Origin: Neospora caninum Liverpool
Taxonomy: Eukaryota > Apicomplexa > Conoidasida > Eucoccidiorida > Sarcocystidae
Reading direction: 5' to 3'
Assembly: GCF_000208865.1 (NCBI RefSeq)
Contig: NC_018397.1
Location: 310,001-374,000 of the forward strand
DNA: 64,000 nucleotides
The notes beneath the pieces were generated by a model. It saw only the letters and a list, made by a program, of their open reading frames with translations, was not told where the DNA came from and ran no database searches. The position numbers were made by a program, and so were the translations under genes. Position 1 is the first letter of the stretch; every line of letters begins with the position of its first letter. Below are positions 43,144 through 50,494 of this stretch, one piece after another.

Positions 43144-45238
43144 CTTGGCAACGGCACGACGAAGAATGCTCTGAAAAAACAAACGGAGCACTAAGAGAGA
43201 GGCAAAAGCGGATCCGCGTCTCTCTTTAGTCGGGAGGTCGTCCTGTGTGCCTGTCGGAGCACAGACGCACCTGCTGACGCAAACCGGGAGCTAAGAGCGA
43301 AAGAGCACCTGTCGAGGCGGAAACCCGGTCCTGCCTGTCACGCACGTATCTAGCTTCTTTTTTACTCTTCTCGTCTCGCGTCTATGTAATACGCGACACG
43401 CGCGTTCCTGGGCTTCTCAATTGGAAGATGCGATGCGCCTCAGCTGTGTCGAAGATTAAATGTGCCCAGAAATTCCCACAGTCGCTGCTCTCACTCTCGT
43501 CCATGCGAATGAACTCTAGGAACTCGAGCCTTTAGACGAGTGCTTCCAAAATACATTACCTGCATACATAAATACATACATTTTCACACATATGCGCAAG
43601 CAACTACCCGCATATATATGCACATGTATGCGTTTCGATGAAATTCTATTTGCGCATAGAATCAACGCTTGACTGGACTTGAATCGAGACATGTAGACCG
43701 GCCACACACTGTCTGTGTCCCGCTTGGCGAGTATCCGCTTTGGTACTGAGGTCTTTGAAAAAATCGGGAAGATCCACGTTGCCGCCGAAAGCTGGTGCGC
43801 TGCTGCCTTGGACGATTCCCAGAAAAATCGAAAGGCCACGCTGTCAGCCCTAAGATTCACGAACTTGTGCGTATAGAGACGAACTATTTACCGAAGACCT
43901 GAATGCGGCTATAGTTCAAACTGCAAAGTGGATTACACGAATCTACATATATATATATATATATATACATATATGCTTCAATATATGCACAAAAATCCAT
44001 GCATAAACAAGATCTAGAAATTGTAAATCTATGCAAATATCGATGCACATATGCATACGCAACCATGTAGGCACATGGATTGTACGGGAAAAGAGGTTTG
44101 GTATTTTTTGCGTGTGCCGTTCGCAGAGCGCACTGCGGAGAGTCTCGCGTATACCCTTCTCTTCGCGCCGTTTCTTCTGTCGCACACAGCGAGACACGTC
44201 CTGGACCGACGGTGGCCAGCGCCGGGACACGGAGGGATAGAGAAGTCGAGATTGACGAGAAGCCTGCAGGAAGAGCTGGTGCCCAAGCCTCGATATCGCG
44301 AGAGGAATTTTGTATTTTGGCGGAACCGGAACGCGGTCTGAGAGGAGAGAACGGTCCGAGACGAGAGGCAGCGCCTGCGGGAGTGTCTCGTCTCTTGCTC
44401 CACAAGCTGGTGCGGCGCCTTTGTGGATGAGAGAACCACCTTGTTTTTCCCTGCGAGACCAGAAGCGGACCGAGGAACAGAAGGGATGAAAGCCGAAAAG
44501 CGAAAAAAGGAAAAACGGTCGTCGATCGCCACGGCGCAAAGCGGCGGGGATTCCACGAGGCGCAACAAGAGAGAGCCGGCGAGGGCAGACAGGCAGGAGA
44601 GGCAAAAAAGTCACTTTCAGTTTCCCTTTCTTCTCTGGACAAAGCGTCCACAGGGGGAAGAGCCTTTCCTGCGTTTTGTTCCCGTGCAGATGAAATGAAG
44701 GAGACCGGGATTCCCCGTTTTTGACTCTCCGCTTCGTCCCTTTTCCCCTCTCGAGCGCTCGAGTGGAAGAAGCTAGCTGGAACGGGACGGAGGGAGCGCG
44801 AGTGGCCGGGCACGAGAAAAAGAGACAGCGCGTAGAGAGACAGCGCGTAGAGAGACAGCGTGAGGAGGAGGGGAGAGGTACAGGTAGCGACGGGTTTGGC
44901 TGTTCCTGCACGGTGAAAAGACGCATTTCGAATGTCTTTTCTTTCGGCATCCTGGGAGCCGCCTGCGGATTGTCGAGGACGGCCAGATGCCGTTGAAGGC
45001 ACGCAGTTTGGCGGTGGTGTATGACGCCCCGCTGGTGGGAAAGATCGCTTCTCGGAGCACGCGAAAAACGATTGAGAGCGAAAAGACGGCCAGGTAGAAA
45101 CAGCCGAGAAAGAACGAAAATTCCTCCCGTTGCGTGAAAAATGGGCCTCTTCTGTGGGAGGAGAAACGGAAACGCGTTCTGAGACGCCTTTCCTGGCGTC
45201 GATTTTTCCGCGGAGCACGGGAAAAACGCAATGTCTTG
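43144..45238. promoter_or_regulatory. Divergent promoter region between PEX3 and the SufE-MnmA gene
   Basis: About 2.1 kb separates the two divergent start codons, so both promoters should lie here. An AT block sits at 43949-43975. Minus-strand frames of up to 466 codons cross the region, but they overlap one another in different frames and carry no motif. No specific element was identified. Confidence 0.4.
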
Positions 45239-48200
45239 ATGGCAAAGCGGCGGGCTGTGCTTCGGTGGACACAAGGCGCTTCATCCTTCCTCGCGTGGCC
45301 GATGTTTCTCAAATCACGTGGCGGCTGCAAGACGCTGCCTGTCGTCCTTTTTCTCTTCCTCATCACCGTCGCCCCACGACGCGCGTTTCCCCTCGCGATT
45401 CCCGTCGCCAGCTCCGCCGGTTCGCCGTGGCTTCCGCCGGCGCTTTCCTGTTCGTCAGGTAAACATAGACCTCGTTCACCTTCTGCCTTCCCGGGTGTAC
45501 GTACACCCGAAAACGAAGAAGGGATTCTTTCAGGTGTACGTACACCTGGCCAAGTCAACCGCACTCCGTTTGCCCGGCGGATCGTCGCCAACCTTCCGCA
45601 GCTTTCCAGTCACGATGGCTCGAGGTGTCGACGGGCACTCCTGGGAACTCGCGGCTTTCTGGCCCGCGTTCGCATTGGAGCAGACAGAGGAACAGAAGGA
45701 GAGACTCAGAGAGACCAGAGCGAACGCGGCATCTGCGCTGCGTTTCCGCCGTCTCGCGGAGCCGGCACCCACCTCCGAGGATTCCATCGGGGCCCGTCGC
45801 TGAGCAAGAAGTCGGGAAAAACACTGCAGCGCAGAGGAAGCTCGCACCCGTGTTGTCTCTCTTTACCAGTGAAACAGGCTTCACGGTGTACATGCACTTC
45901 TCTCTCTCACCATGGAGAAGTTCCGTACTCAGGTAGTGGTGCTTCTCCTCTTCCTCACAGGTCTCGCCTCTCTCCCTCGTCTGCCTTTCTCAGCAACGCG
46001 AGGTCCAGGCGTCAGATTGGGGTAAAAAAAACCGAGCTGTGGCATCGTTGTGTCGCATTTAGACGGAAACACTGTCTTGGGGACAGCGCGAAGGCAGACA
46101 GGTCTGTGTTCTTTCTTTTTCACCTTTCACCAGGTGACTCCTCAACCGTCTCTGTTGACTACCTTGCCGAACCTTCGGAATACAGGGGCCGACTACAACT
46201 CGCCTCTTCTTTGTCTTCTCACTCTCTCCTGCGTCGTGTTTGTGTTTCTCGTTATTCTTCTGTTCGTCGTTCCTTCTGCACTCTTTCCTCGTCTTTTCCC
46301 TCTTTTTCTCCGAGACCTCTCTCTTCGTGCCTTTCCCCGTCTTCTCCCTCTTCCCCGTCTTCTCCCTCTCCTCCCCCTTCTCGTTTTCTTCCTCCACGTC
46401 TTCGTGCTTTACTTTCGGAGTTGCGAGAACAGAGGGACTTGCATGCAGTGTTCGAGAAACTTGTTTCCTTGGCGTCGTGTCTCCCCCTCCGTCGAGTGAA
46501 AGATACGGCGGCTCGGTCCCCGTCTTCCGCCTCGTGTTCGTCTTCCGCGTCTATGACATCCTCTCGGGACGAGGGTAACGAGACGGACGAGGAAACAGAA
46601 GACAATCCGCGAGCCTGGGAGAGAGTCGAAGGCTGTTCCGCTCTCGTGCACATCCGCGTCCGTCTGCAGCCCCGGCCGTCTCAAGATGCAAGAGAACCAC
46701 GCGACTGCGCCCTCGCACGCGGAAAAGAAGCTCCAGAGGAGACGCCGAAGAAGCGTTCGGGGTTTGGTCCTCCGTCTTCCCCCTCGCCTTTTTCTTCTTC
46801 GTGCTCCGACTGTCACTCGCTCCGCAGAGGCGACGGCGACGCAAGCAGAACCCCTCTCCCTCCTGCTGTCGGCCTCACGACAGAGAACAGAGGCGAGGTG
46901 CGCGTGGATCTCAGAGGATGGTCAGACTCCCTGCTCGTGCGAGGCTGGCTGTCGGTCCTCGTTGCGGGCCTGAAGGGCTGTGCGCCCGAGACGGTTCTCG
47001 CTCTAACGACGGACGAGATCCTGCGCGAGGCGGGGCTGAAGGCGCCGTCGACGTTGAGGTCTCCTGGCAAAGAGGCAGACCGCAGCGCAAGAGAGCCTCA
47101 GGAAGAAGGCCGGGCCGAAGGCGACGAAGTGCAACAGGGGGGTGAAGAAGACGGAGAGAGAGAAGAAAGGCGGAGGGCGAGGGATGAAGAGAAACGCCGA
47201 CTCGTTGTCCCGCAAGGTCTCGGGCACATGCTGCGGTCAATTCAACGGCAAGTCCGAGTCCAGCTCGGCCGCCTGCAGGAAGAGAAGACAGGATGCACGG
47301 CCGAGGAAAAAGTGGGGGAGAGGAAGAACTCCGACAGGTCTCACGAACCGGCCGGACCTCCAGGACAAGGAGAAAAGCCGACAGCTGAGCTCGAGAGCGT
47401 CCCGGATCCTCGCAGCAGGAACCGAGAGAAGGAAGCCGTCACTCTCCCCTCGTCTCCTCTTTCGTCTCCATGCCGTCCGCGAGCTCCGCCGTCTTCCCTC
47501 GCCAGAGCCCTCGCTTCGTCGTCGCCTCTCTCTTCGTCCTCCTCAGAAAGTTCTGGGCCGGAGGCAGAGGCGAGGCGCGCTGCCCCTCCGCTGTCTGAGG
47601 AGATCGCCGTGCTACTCAGTGGCGGAGTCGATTCGTCTGTGTCTCTCCGTCTGCTCCAGCAGCGGGGCTTCTCGCCTCGGGCTTTCTTCATCAAAATCTG
47701 GCTGCCAGAGTATCTGCTGGTGTCTAGACACCTCCCGCGCGAAGACACCGGCGAAAGCGCGCTTCCCGAGGCAGGCCGCGCGTGCGGCTGGAGAGCGGAT
47801 TTGACCTTCGCCGAGCAGGTTTGTCGCCAAGCGCGCGTGCCTCTCGAGGTCCTCCCGCTCCAAGAAGCTTACTGGGAAGGCGTGGTTAAGCAGCTGCTCG
47901 ACGAGGCAAGGTGCGCGGAGCCCAAACTGCAGGCGAGACGCAGATCGTGCGACCAAGGCGGGACACACGGCATAGCCGAACAAAACCGACGACGGAGAAT
48001 AAGGCTTCTCTCTGCCTGTGTCTCCGTGTTCCCTTTCCTCGTTCTCAGTGTCTTCGTTGGGCCCCTTCGCTTGCGGCCTGGGTTGATGCTTCCCGCTTCC
48101 GTCTCGCGCCCCGTCGCTGTCGCCTTACGTCCTTCTCCTCGAGTGTCTGCCTCTCTTCTTCTCTCGTCAAGTTATGTGTCTCTTCTGCCCGTTATTCTTT

Positions 48201-50494
48201 TCTGTCATGCAGACAGGGCCTGACGCCCAACCCGGACTGGTGGTGCAACCAGAGAGTGAAGTTCGGTGCGTTCCTCGACCTCCTGGACGGTCGGGAAAAC
48301 CGCCGCAACCTCTCACGACATAACGGAGACAAAGCGAGCGAAGCCAAAAACGCAGAGAGGCCTTCCTCCGCGTGGTCTTCGTGCTGGACCGGCGCGGTGG
48401 CGTCTGGGCATTACGCCCGAGTTGTTCATGACGCAGAGGCAGCGAGGTCTGGACAACGCGAAGGACACGAAAGAGAAGATGAGCGAGGAGACAGAAGAAC
48501 CAGGCTGTTGCGAGGAAAGGATCGCCGGAAAGACCAATCGTATTTTTTGAGTGGGCTGTCGCAGAGACAGTTGAGACGCTTGCTGACACCCGTGGGAGAT
48601 ATGGAGAAGGTGGAGGTAGGTCAGGGATTGGCGTACTTCTGTCTCTTCTGGAACGTGAAAGTCTTTGGTGGTCAGTTCGCTTTGCTCCGGCGCTGCCCCC
48701 GTGCACGTGTGTGTGTGTGTGTGTGTGTGTGTCGCTACTCTCGTGGCTGCATTTCTCTCATCCACTGTGGTTTTTTCCGGTCTCTTTTTCTGGTTCTTCT
48801 CGCGCAGTTCTCCCTTCGCCTTTTGCTTTTTTCCTCTCGCCCGTCTTGTCTCTCTCGCGCCGCCTTTTCACGCTTCGCTGGCCCGGATCGTCTGCTCTTT
48901 CGCGTTGTTCCCTCTTCTCGCGCAGGTCCGTCGCCTCGCTGCGGGTCTGGCGTTGCCGACTGCGTCTCGACGAGACAGCCAGGGGCTCTGCTTTCTGGGC
49001 AAACTTCCTCTGTCGCTTTTCTTCCAGCATTTCCTGGGGTCTTCTCCAGGCCCGGTGCTCCACTTCCCGTCCTGTCTCGCTCTCGGAACTCACGGGGGCC
49101 TCTGGAACTTCACTGTGGGCCAGCGGAAGGGCGTTACGCCCTGCATAGACGTCGGTCGCATTCGGAAACTTTCTTCTCGTTCCTCTCTGGACTCGCGTGC
49201 GGCTCCTTTCGGCAACCAACAGAAAAGGCAGACGAGGGACAGAAGCGAGCAGTCCAGAGGGCCCGGAGAACTTCAGAACTGGTCCCCGGCGTCAGAGTCG
49301 AGTGTACGTACACCTGGAACGCCGAACGTCCCCGAGCCGGCGGGCCCGGCGTTGGCCACGTCCGGCGAGGAGGCGACTGCGAATCTTCGCCTCGAGAGAA
49401 ACGCATCAAAGAGGGAAAGTCGGCCCGGCGGGGCAGACCCCAACGCGCCAGACAGGAACCGAAACACCGTGGGTCTCGTGTGTACATACAGCCGAGCTCC
49501 GCCGACTGACGGAGGTCGAGCGACATCTCCGAGTTCGAGCTCCGCCGTGGACGGGAACGAAGTTCGCAAAGGTGGACGGAGCCGTCTCCCGCGTCCCGCT
49601 CTCGCCGCCCTTCTCTCGGAAACTTCCCAAAACGTTTTTGGATCGGCACATCCCCTTCTGCGCGGAGGCCGTGGCGCGACGAGTCTCGCAGGCCGTTGGG
49701 TTGTGGCGGGGAAGCATCCCCCGTCGAACGCGCTCTTTGTTGTGAGCGAGAAAGAAATGAAGGATGCGGCAGCGGTGGCGGAAAGTGTCGGCTACTCGTT
49801 GGAGGTCCTCGCCGCGGGCGCCGGTGTCGATACAGCGGCGGAGTCCCAGGCCACGTATCTCCTCGCCTTCCTTCTCACCCTCCAGCAGAAATTCTTGCGC
49901 GTTGACGACTTCCAGTGGATTTCTGGCGCGCCGCCGCTTCGCCCTTTAAACGCGGTAAAAGAGGAGCATCCGTGGGCGCCGCGTGCGTCCTTCCTCCACG
50001 CGCTTCCTAGTCGCAGCGAGGGAGTCCTGCCATGGCGCCAAGCCGGCGACGAGAAGGAAGACGGCGACCTGGCGTTTCTTCGCTGGGCCCTCGAAGGCAC
50101 GAAGGACAGGAGTCCCCGGGTGTACGACGTGCAGGTGCGGCACGCCGCGGGGAGCGCCTGTGCAGCTGTTCATCGAAACGTCCGTCTTTGTCTCTTCCCT
50201 CCAGAGAAGGTTCTTTCCAAGGAAACTCTTTCCCGACCTTCCGTCCTTTCTTACCACAGCAAAGGGAGCAGAGCCGAGAGAACGCGTTGGCACTTTGGGG
50301 ACCAGCGCTCCAGCAGCAGCCTTCCTGGTGTCTGGACAGCGTGGATCGAGTTGCACGAACCGGATGAAGGCCTTGCTCCCGGACAAATCGCTGCTCTCTA
50401 CGAAGGAGAAGAATGTCTCGGTGCCGGGCGAATCAGCCCCAGGCAAGGACACCTGGCCGTCGAGGCAGCGCTGCGGGCTGCGGGGCTGAGTTAG
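45239..50494 (+). CDS. mnmA: SufE-MnmA fusion: sulfur-acceptor domain joined to tRNA 2-thiouridylase, probably apicoplast-targeted
   Basis: MnmA makes 2-thiouridine at tRNA wobble U34; SufE accepts sulfur from the cysteine desulfurase SufS. Exons 45239-47910, 48213-48615 and 48926-50494 give about 1,547 aa, with phases 2 and 0. The N-terminus has a hydrophobic stretch ([15 protein letters not shown]) followed by a Ser/Arg-rich region, the pattern of a bipartite apicoplast leader. The SufE domain spans [20 protein letters not shown] to [11 protein letters not shown]; its acceptor Cys is in RVEGCSALV (codon 46634-46636). The MnmA domain has the PP-loop [31 protein letters not shown] (Cys codon 48244-48246), [29 protein letters not shown] (Cys codon 48989-48991) and NFTVGQRKG. 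The C-terminal barrel ends in [17 protein letters not shown]. Both catalytic cysteines are present. The leader region (45240-46390) may hide short in-frame introns, e.g. 45459-45533. Confidence 0.88.
45492..45509. repeat. Dispersed palindrome, 18 bp, CGGGTGTACGTACACCCG
   Basis: Perfect 18-bp palindrome in the leader region of the SufE-MnmA gene. If translated it reads Gly-Val-Arg-Thr-Pro. A second copy follows 21 bp downstream. Confidence 0.85.
45531..45548. repeat. Dispersed palindrome, 18 bp, CAGGTGTACGTACACCTG
   Basis: Perfect 18-bp palindrome; its left end coincides with a splice-acceptor-like TTCTTTCAG. Translated through, it again reads Gly-Val-Arg-Thr-Pro. Confidence 0.85.
47719..47732. 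repeat. Dispersed palindrome GGTGTCTAGACACC
   Basis: Perfect 14-bp palindrome within the MnmA catalytic domain coding sequence, in a segment after the PP-loop that looks like a family-atypical insertion. Confidence 0.75.
48707..48732 (+). repeat. (GT)n microsatellite in SufE-MnmA intron 2
   Basis: Thirteen uninterrupted GT units in the intron between exons 2 and 3. Confidence 0.9.

Follow-up and report, generated by a model that had tools for sequence, protein, structure and literature searches.

How does sulfur reach the enzyme that thiolates tRNA in a parasite plastid? The question is raised by a gene on the forward strand of a 64,000-nucleotide stretch of the Neospora caninum Liverpool genome (contig NC_018397.1, positions 310,001 to 374,000; hereafter the window), in which a SufE domain precedes the tRNA thiolase MnmA. 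Taking all parts together, we consider it quite likely that this gene would encode an apicoplast tRNA 2-thiouridylase, MnmA, with a plastid SufE domain at its N-terminus; that SufS (NFS2) would load a persulfide onto Cys466 in the SufE domain; that this persulfide would move to a catalytic MnmA cysteine on the same chain; that MnmA would place the sulfur on U34 of plastid tRNA-Lys, -Glu and -Gln; and that the fusion would have arisen once in the red-plastid lineage and arrived in apicomplexans with that plastid. We infer two of these steps, namely the sulfur transfer within one chain and the polarity of the ancestral change.

The fusion itself is already known. The initial annotation of the window did not say whether it had been described in coccidia: the fusion has been published for T. 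gondii and other apicomplexans, and the annotation's main claims were already in print in Yang 2022 (PMC9420914) and Swift 2023 (PMC10219651). In the former, domain analysis of the T. gondii orthologue (TgMnmA; TGGT1_309110 / TGME49_309110) gives SufE and then MnmA domains, as in the window protein; the two differ in species and length, and the passages that name SufE offer no mechanism for it. In the latter, modelling gives the P. falciparum enzyme (PfMnmA) a SufE-like structural domain at its N-terminus, the same architecture as in the window, and a structural figure also draws on the corresponding parts of the proteins from B. microti, T. annulata, T. gondii and E. tenella; the coccidian protein differs in its longer leader and loops, and the passages concerned do not take the fusion to algae. 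What is added here is the breadth of the fusion across the red-plastid lineage, where it was also found in red and brown algae, diatoms and the chromerids Chromera and Vitrella, and its origin. Neither a red-lineage-wide SufE-MnmA nor its single origin was found in the literature searched (mostly without subscription papers and bioRxiv), and a search by term of PMC8003979 and PMC12803347 gave no SufE-MnmA in the matching passages.

Gene structure, leader and domains

Pfam profiles were run on the three exon frames within the window, at the curated cut-off of each family. SufE (PF02657) matched at 31.1 bits (cut-off 27) and tRNA_Me_trans (PF03054) at 49.3 bits (cut-off 20.6), and the frames of exons 2 and 3 gave further pieces of PF03054 together with PF20259 and PF20258, all over cut-off. 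This profile check of the exon translations, which the initial annotation had proposed, agrees with the spliced model and the alignment in bearing out its picture of one gene with a hydrophobic leader, a SufE domain (RVEGC) and an MnmA domain with PP-loop and both cysteines. The MnmA HUP, PRC-barrel and C-terminal beta-barrel domains are all present across the exon frames, as are the hallmarks SGGVDSS at residue 794, Cys902 in PNPDWWCN and Cys1047 in DSQGLCF. Against the TIGR00420 cut-off of 236.95 bits, the proteins P0002 (230.5) and P0003 (236.6), both with inserts, fall just under, and relatives from Vitrella, Porphyridium and Seminavis exceed it.

An open frame at 45098-48223 (+) takes in the SufE match and runs on through the MnmA PP-loop, as had been claimed from the sequence, and the fusion is therefore independent of splicing. 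The predicted spliced model (45239-47910, 48213-48615 and 48926-50494, with two GT..AG introns) encodes 1547 amino acids without internal stops, and matches the public N. caninum protein P0002 letter for letter from Met439 to the end. Because the identity starts only there, the public model begins inside the gene: it omits window 45302-46552, which holds the plastid leader and SufE helix 1, though the shortened P0002 still contains the SufE acceptor cysteine. The T. gondii protein begins where Met22 of the window protein (nt 45302) aligns. Translation thus probably starts at Met22 (nt 45302) and not at 45239, as first proposed.

Following a hydrophobic segment (residues 29-45), the stretch 51-380 is 23% S+T, 14.5% K+R and 5% D+E. 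Residues 22-380 align with the T. gondii N-terminus at 150 identical positions of 327; judged by this alignment and the T. gondii start, the leader belongs to the gene and is conserved. Its composition fits the apicoplast type (signal plus transit peptide), in keeping with the location predicted at the outset, and tagging showed the T. gondii orthologue to be in the apicoplast (Yang 2022, PMC9420914). An ASAF-like plastid motif occurred in 13 of 124 fused proteins (4.6 expected by shuffling) and in 2 of 119 unfused ones; we set it aside as support, the signal being weak.

The PF02657 match (P0001 residues 555-610, profile positions 55-108 of 121) covers the second half of SufE only. Alignment and structure widen the domain to residues 381-690, with low-confidence loops between the core elements, and move its end from the ~47250 first estimated to nt 47308; the whole SufE fold appears intact in the structure model of the window protein. 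The acceptor motif V-x-G-C (Cys466 in the window) is present in all 22 chosen alignment rows. Across 146 aligned segments, in which some proteins are counted more than once and the window's locus three times, the acceptor column holds 131 cysteines, 15 gaps and no other letter, the cysteine being kept in Neospora, Toxoplasma, Besnoitia, Eimeria tenella and Cyclospora. The NCBIfam SufE/CsdE equivalog found no match at E 0.001 in P0001, P0002 or P0003, and its matches in P0072, P0081 and P0145 fall under cut-off; a phmmer query of the PDB using the SufE part of the window protein came back empty even at E 10. A Foldseek search started from the modelled structure found nothing under E 0.001, and its 17 top rows were all SufE, CsdE or Thermus 1wlo. 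Profile and modelled fold together show the kinship of the predicted domain with SufE.

Distribution and descent of the fusion

Each protein search scored ~8,000 candidates only. The spliced window protein retrieved 28 proteins, 13 of them with PF02657, including those of Ectocarpus, Chromera and the diatom Epithemia. When Ectocarpus was the seed, PF02657 was found in all but one (P0079) of the 120 matches listed out of 531, with Porphyridium, Gracilaria, Gracilariopsis, Agarophyton, Vitrella, Seminavis and Chaetoceros among the bearers. Seeded with the green alga Raphidocelis, a search that leans to the green line by design, none of the 120 matches listed out of 781 carried PF02657. Our own SufE profile (E < 1e-3) detected a SufE part in 136 of 263 retrieved proteins, P0002 included, and placed it N-terminal to the PP-loop every time (136/136). 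By Pfam, the proteins retrieved from Eimeria, Cyclospora and Cystoisospora lack a SufE match; our profile recovers the domain in E. tenella, E. stiedai, E. intestinalis and Cyclospora, and E. brunetti (P0007) just misses the threshold (E 0.0014). The search for orthologues that had been suggested with the first description thus found the same fusion in Toxoplasma, Besnoitia, Eimeria and Cyclospora; no Plasmodium-named protein was among the matches listed, and Plasmodium is placed here through Swift 2023 (PMC10219651).

For the tree, only the MnmA region was used (361 columns); its 57 rows comprise 33 fused, 13 unfused green-type and 11 bacterial sequences, in a sample without Cyanidiophyceae, glaucophytes, cyanobacteria, named cryptophytes, haptophytes and dinoflagellates. 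A single branch (support 99/95) separates the 33 fused rows from all others, and no bacterial row is placed within the fused group. Another branch (100/100) unites the 13 unfused rows of plants, green algae and the like. On this tree the window's MnmA belongs with the fused red-lineage clade, not with green-type or bacterial MnmA. Within the fused branch of the first tree, one part (95/78, not starred) holds the named red algae with several further rows, and the other (95/93) holds the ochrophytes, chromerids and apicomplexans with the remaining rows. In a rerun minus one long row and with stricter columns, the fused branch stood at 98/95 and apicomplexans adjoined chromerids at 93/82.

Approximately unbiased (AU) tests addressed specific groupings, of which two (fused rows minus apicomplexans; apicomplexans plus green) were named after the tree had been seen. 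Apicomplexans grouped with green-type rows were rejected (p 0.004 in the first tree, 0.010 in the rerun), as was a separate gain by apicomplexans, modelled by constraining the remaining fused rows to a group of their own (p 0.003). The four named red algae as a sole clade were also rejected (p 0.001); since other rows sit among them, they are not a clade by themselves. Five bacterial rows (Babeliales, Uabimicrobium, Ignavibacteriae, Spirochaetaceae, Gemmatimonadaceae) join the green-type rows, weakly (87/73); a sister relationship of red and green plastid MnmA thus does not follow from the tree, and the two may be non-sisters. In a limited bacterial sample without cyanobacteria, the bacterial MnmAs nearest the plastid type (L014-L018, L027 and L034, from Uabimicrobium, Babeliales, Ignavibacteriae and others) share 44-51% identity with the query.

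The red-type distribution, the single branch and an acceptor cysteine that is never substituted where aligned point to a probably single fusion event in the red line, whose product reached the apicoplast with its plastid via secondary endosymbiosis; judged from these sequences, it is not a parasite invention. The fusion could instead be older, formed in the ancestor of red and green plastids and then lost in the green line, which we regard as unlikely, yet as a serious contender. Gain and loss are indistinguishable on the tree, whose sample leaves glaucophytes, Cyanidiophyceae and cyanobacteria outside. However, our SufE profile found no SufE part in 118 further proteins from the Raphidocelis-seeded search or in the 80 bacterial MnmA loci listed from a pattern-limited scan, the fused rows form one branch, and the five bacterial rows, themselves unfused, join the green-type rows rather than falling outside both.

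We favour, as the probable account, that SufE-MnmA would serve plastid sulfur delivery throughout the red-plastid lineage, having formed a single time before secondary endosymbiosis. It would then parallel SUFE3 of the green line and, as a rare genomic change, would tie apicoplast and chromerid plastids to red algae. A red-versus-green debate over the origin of the apicoplast exists, and a single shared fusion would be a clean marker for it. The SufE-MnmA wiring itself seems ancestral to red-type plastids, and is open to study in algae.

SUFE3, in the passages of PMC8003979, is SufE fused to quinolinate synthase, and belongs to the green lineage except for a few heterokonts. Like the window protein it joins a plastid SufE to the enzyme it supposedly serves; unlike it, the recipient is a NadA domain. 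SUFE1 of algae likewise adds a domain to a plastid SufE, but this is BolA, no sulfur-accepting tRNA enzyme (PMC8003979). As SUFE3 is green and SufE-MnmA was found in the red lineage, the two plastid lines each seem to hold SufE fused to a different sulfur-using enzyme; a remark on this parallel was not found in the literature searched.

The path of sulfur to MnmA

Published work on P. falciparum, in which one desulfurase supplies both plastid tRNA thiolation and Fe-S assembly, backs the expectation of a SufS supply to tRNA thiolation. Swift 2023 (PMC10219651) suggests a route from SufS through the SufE-like domain to MnmA, and reports that SufS, and not SufE, is needed for apicoplast maintenance. 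In the N. caninum Liverpool assembly (57.5 Mb, 14 contigs) we located SufS-like exons at C13:5873618-5875993, which were scored per exon and lie under the whole-protein cut-off, and weaker matches to the SufS model on C5, C1, C7 and C14. The best Aminotran_5 match (L006) was dropped as a SufS candidate for its low score with the SufS model.

The initial annotation also proposed that the fusion would replace the Tus relay. TusA has no match in the N. caninum genome, and Tus proteins were not found in P. falciparum (PMC10219651); the covalent relay would be a further step, one that a Bacillus MnmA lacking SufE can bypass. B. subtilis YrvO-MnmA and E. coli IscS-Tus-MnmA likewise feed desulfurase sulfur to MnmA, the former as a direct pair and the latter as a five-protein relay, both without the SufE domain of the window protein (PMC10219651). 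T. gondii carries two further putative SUFE proteins, and the fused domain is hence not the sole SufE there. A candidate stand-alone SufE gene, which may or may not be intact, lies at C14:6384955 in N. caninum.

Domain order, the conserved cysteine and the modelled whole fold fit a built-in relay from SufS through Cys466 and an MnmA cysteine to U34. Several observations weigh against it. The strongest is that PfMnmA could be replaced by the Bacillus enzyme, which has no SufE domain, though this succeeded only once in four tries (PMC10219651). The SufE domain is thus not strictly required when SufS is present, but being dispensable in this setting does not make it idle. In addition, the P. falciparum domain is termed only "SufE-like structural", from modelling (PMC10219651); the Cystoisospora protein (P0011) shows a gap at the acceptor column; two Eimeria proteins keep the cysteine with R replacing the preceding G; and the long loops and linker of the window protein differ from compact SufE.

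A rather improbable alternative casts the SufE domain as a docking and activating module that binds SufS and speeds the desulfurase, with SufS sulfur passing straight to MnmA and no persulfide on Cys466. The Bacillus replacement speaks for it, as do the ~17-fold boost that PfSufE gives to SufS activity and the argument in Swift 2023 that SufS may give MnmA sulfur directly, like YrvO, the closest parallel named there (PMC10219651); yet pure docking needs no cysteine, and the acceptor is never replaced where aligned. That the domain is a relic with a minor role in present-day parasites seems very doubtful: coccidian SufE scores are weak, the inserts are large, Pfam misses the domain in the three genera named above and the Cystoisospora cysteine is not aligned, but the cysteine persists in the five coccidians listed earlier and, with an altered motif, in two more Eimeria, and the fold appears intact in the window protein's model. 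Two adjacent genes merged by the gene model, a notion to which the public start at Met439 lends some colour, we reject as scarcely credible, given the single open exon, the SufE cysteine retained in P0002, the identical domain order in all 136 fused proteins retrieved and a tagged TgMnmA that ran at the size expected (PMC9420914).

Feature coordinates and related architectures

Table 1. Features of the SufE-MnmA gene, in window coordinates.
Feature	Position	Strand	Basis or remark
SufE-MnmA fusion gene, three exons	45302-47910, 48213-48615, 48926-50494	+	probable start; earlier in-frame ATG at 45239
Hydrophobic leader segment, residues 29-45	45323..45373	+	hydropathy; inside stretch aligned to T. 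gondii start
Ser/Arg-rich leader, residues 46-380, putatively transit-peptide-like	45374..46378	+	composition; T. gondii alignment
Complete SufE domain, residues 381-690, low-confidence insert loops	46379..47308	+	alignment and structure model
SufE acceptor Cys466 (RVEGC)	46634..46636	+	sequence alignment
SufE-MnmA linker, same open exon	47309..47587	+	
MnmA catalytic domain start; PP-loop SGGVDSS from nt 47618	47588..47910	+	
Exon 2: MnmA, PNPDWWCN, Cys902 at 48244-48246	48213..48615	+	
Exon 3: MnmA, DSQGLCF, Cys1047 at 48989-48991; then central and C-terminal domains	48926..50494	+	

Other joined architectures came to light beside SufE-MnmA. Six proteins of 1142-1186 aa (P0014, P0090, P0108, P0112, P0117 and P0120) carry a SET domain (PF00856) next to SufE-MnmA, and may be true triple fusions or gene-model run-ons. 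In P0029, MnmA is joined to a class V aminotransferase domain, the protein being named cysteine desulfurase: an alternative wiring of donor and MnmA. In T. gondii TGGT1_294380, a TtcA-like PP-loop protein also carries two class V aminotransferase domains (Yang 2022, PMC9420914); this would give the species another putative tRNA thiolase with a desulfurase-type domain joined to it.

The second intron of the window gene holds a GT microsatellite (48707-48732). Downstream, on the opposite strand, lies a ribosomal protein L4 gene (52540-54105, -; PF00573, PF14374).
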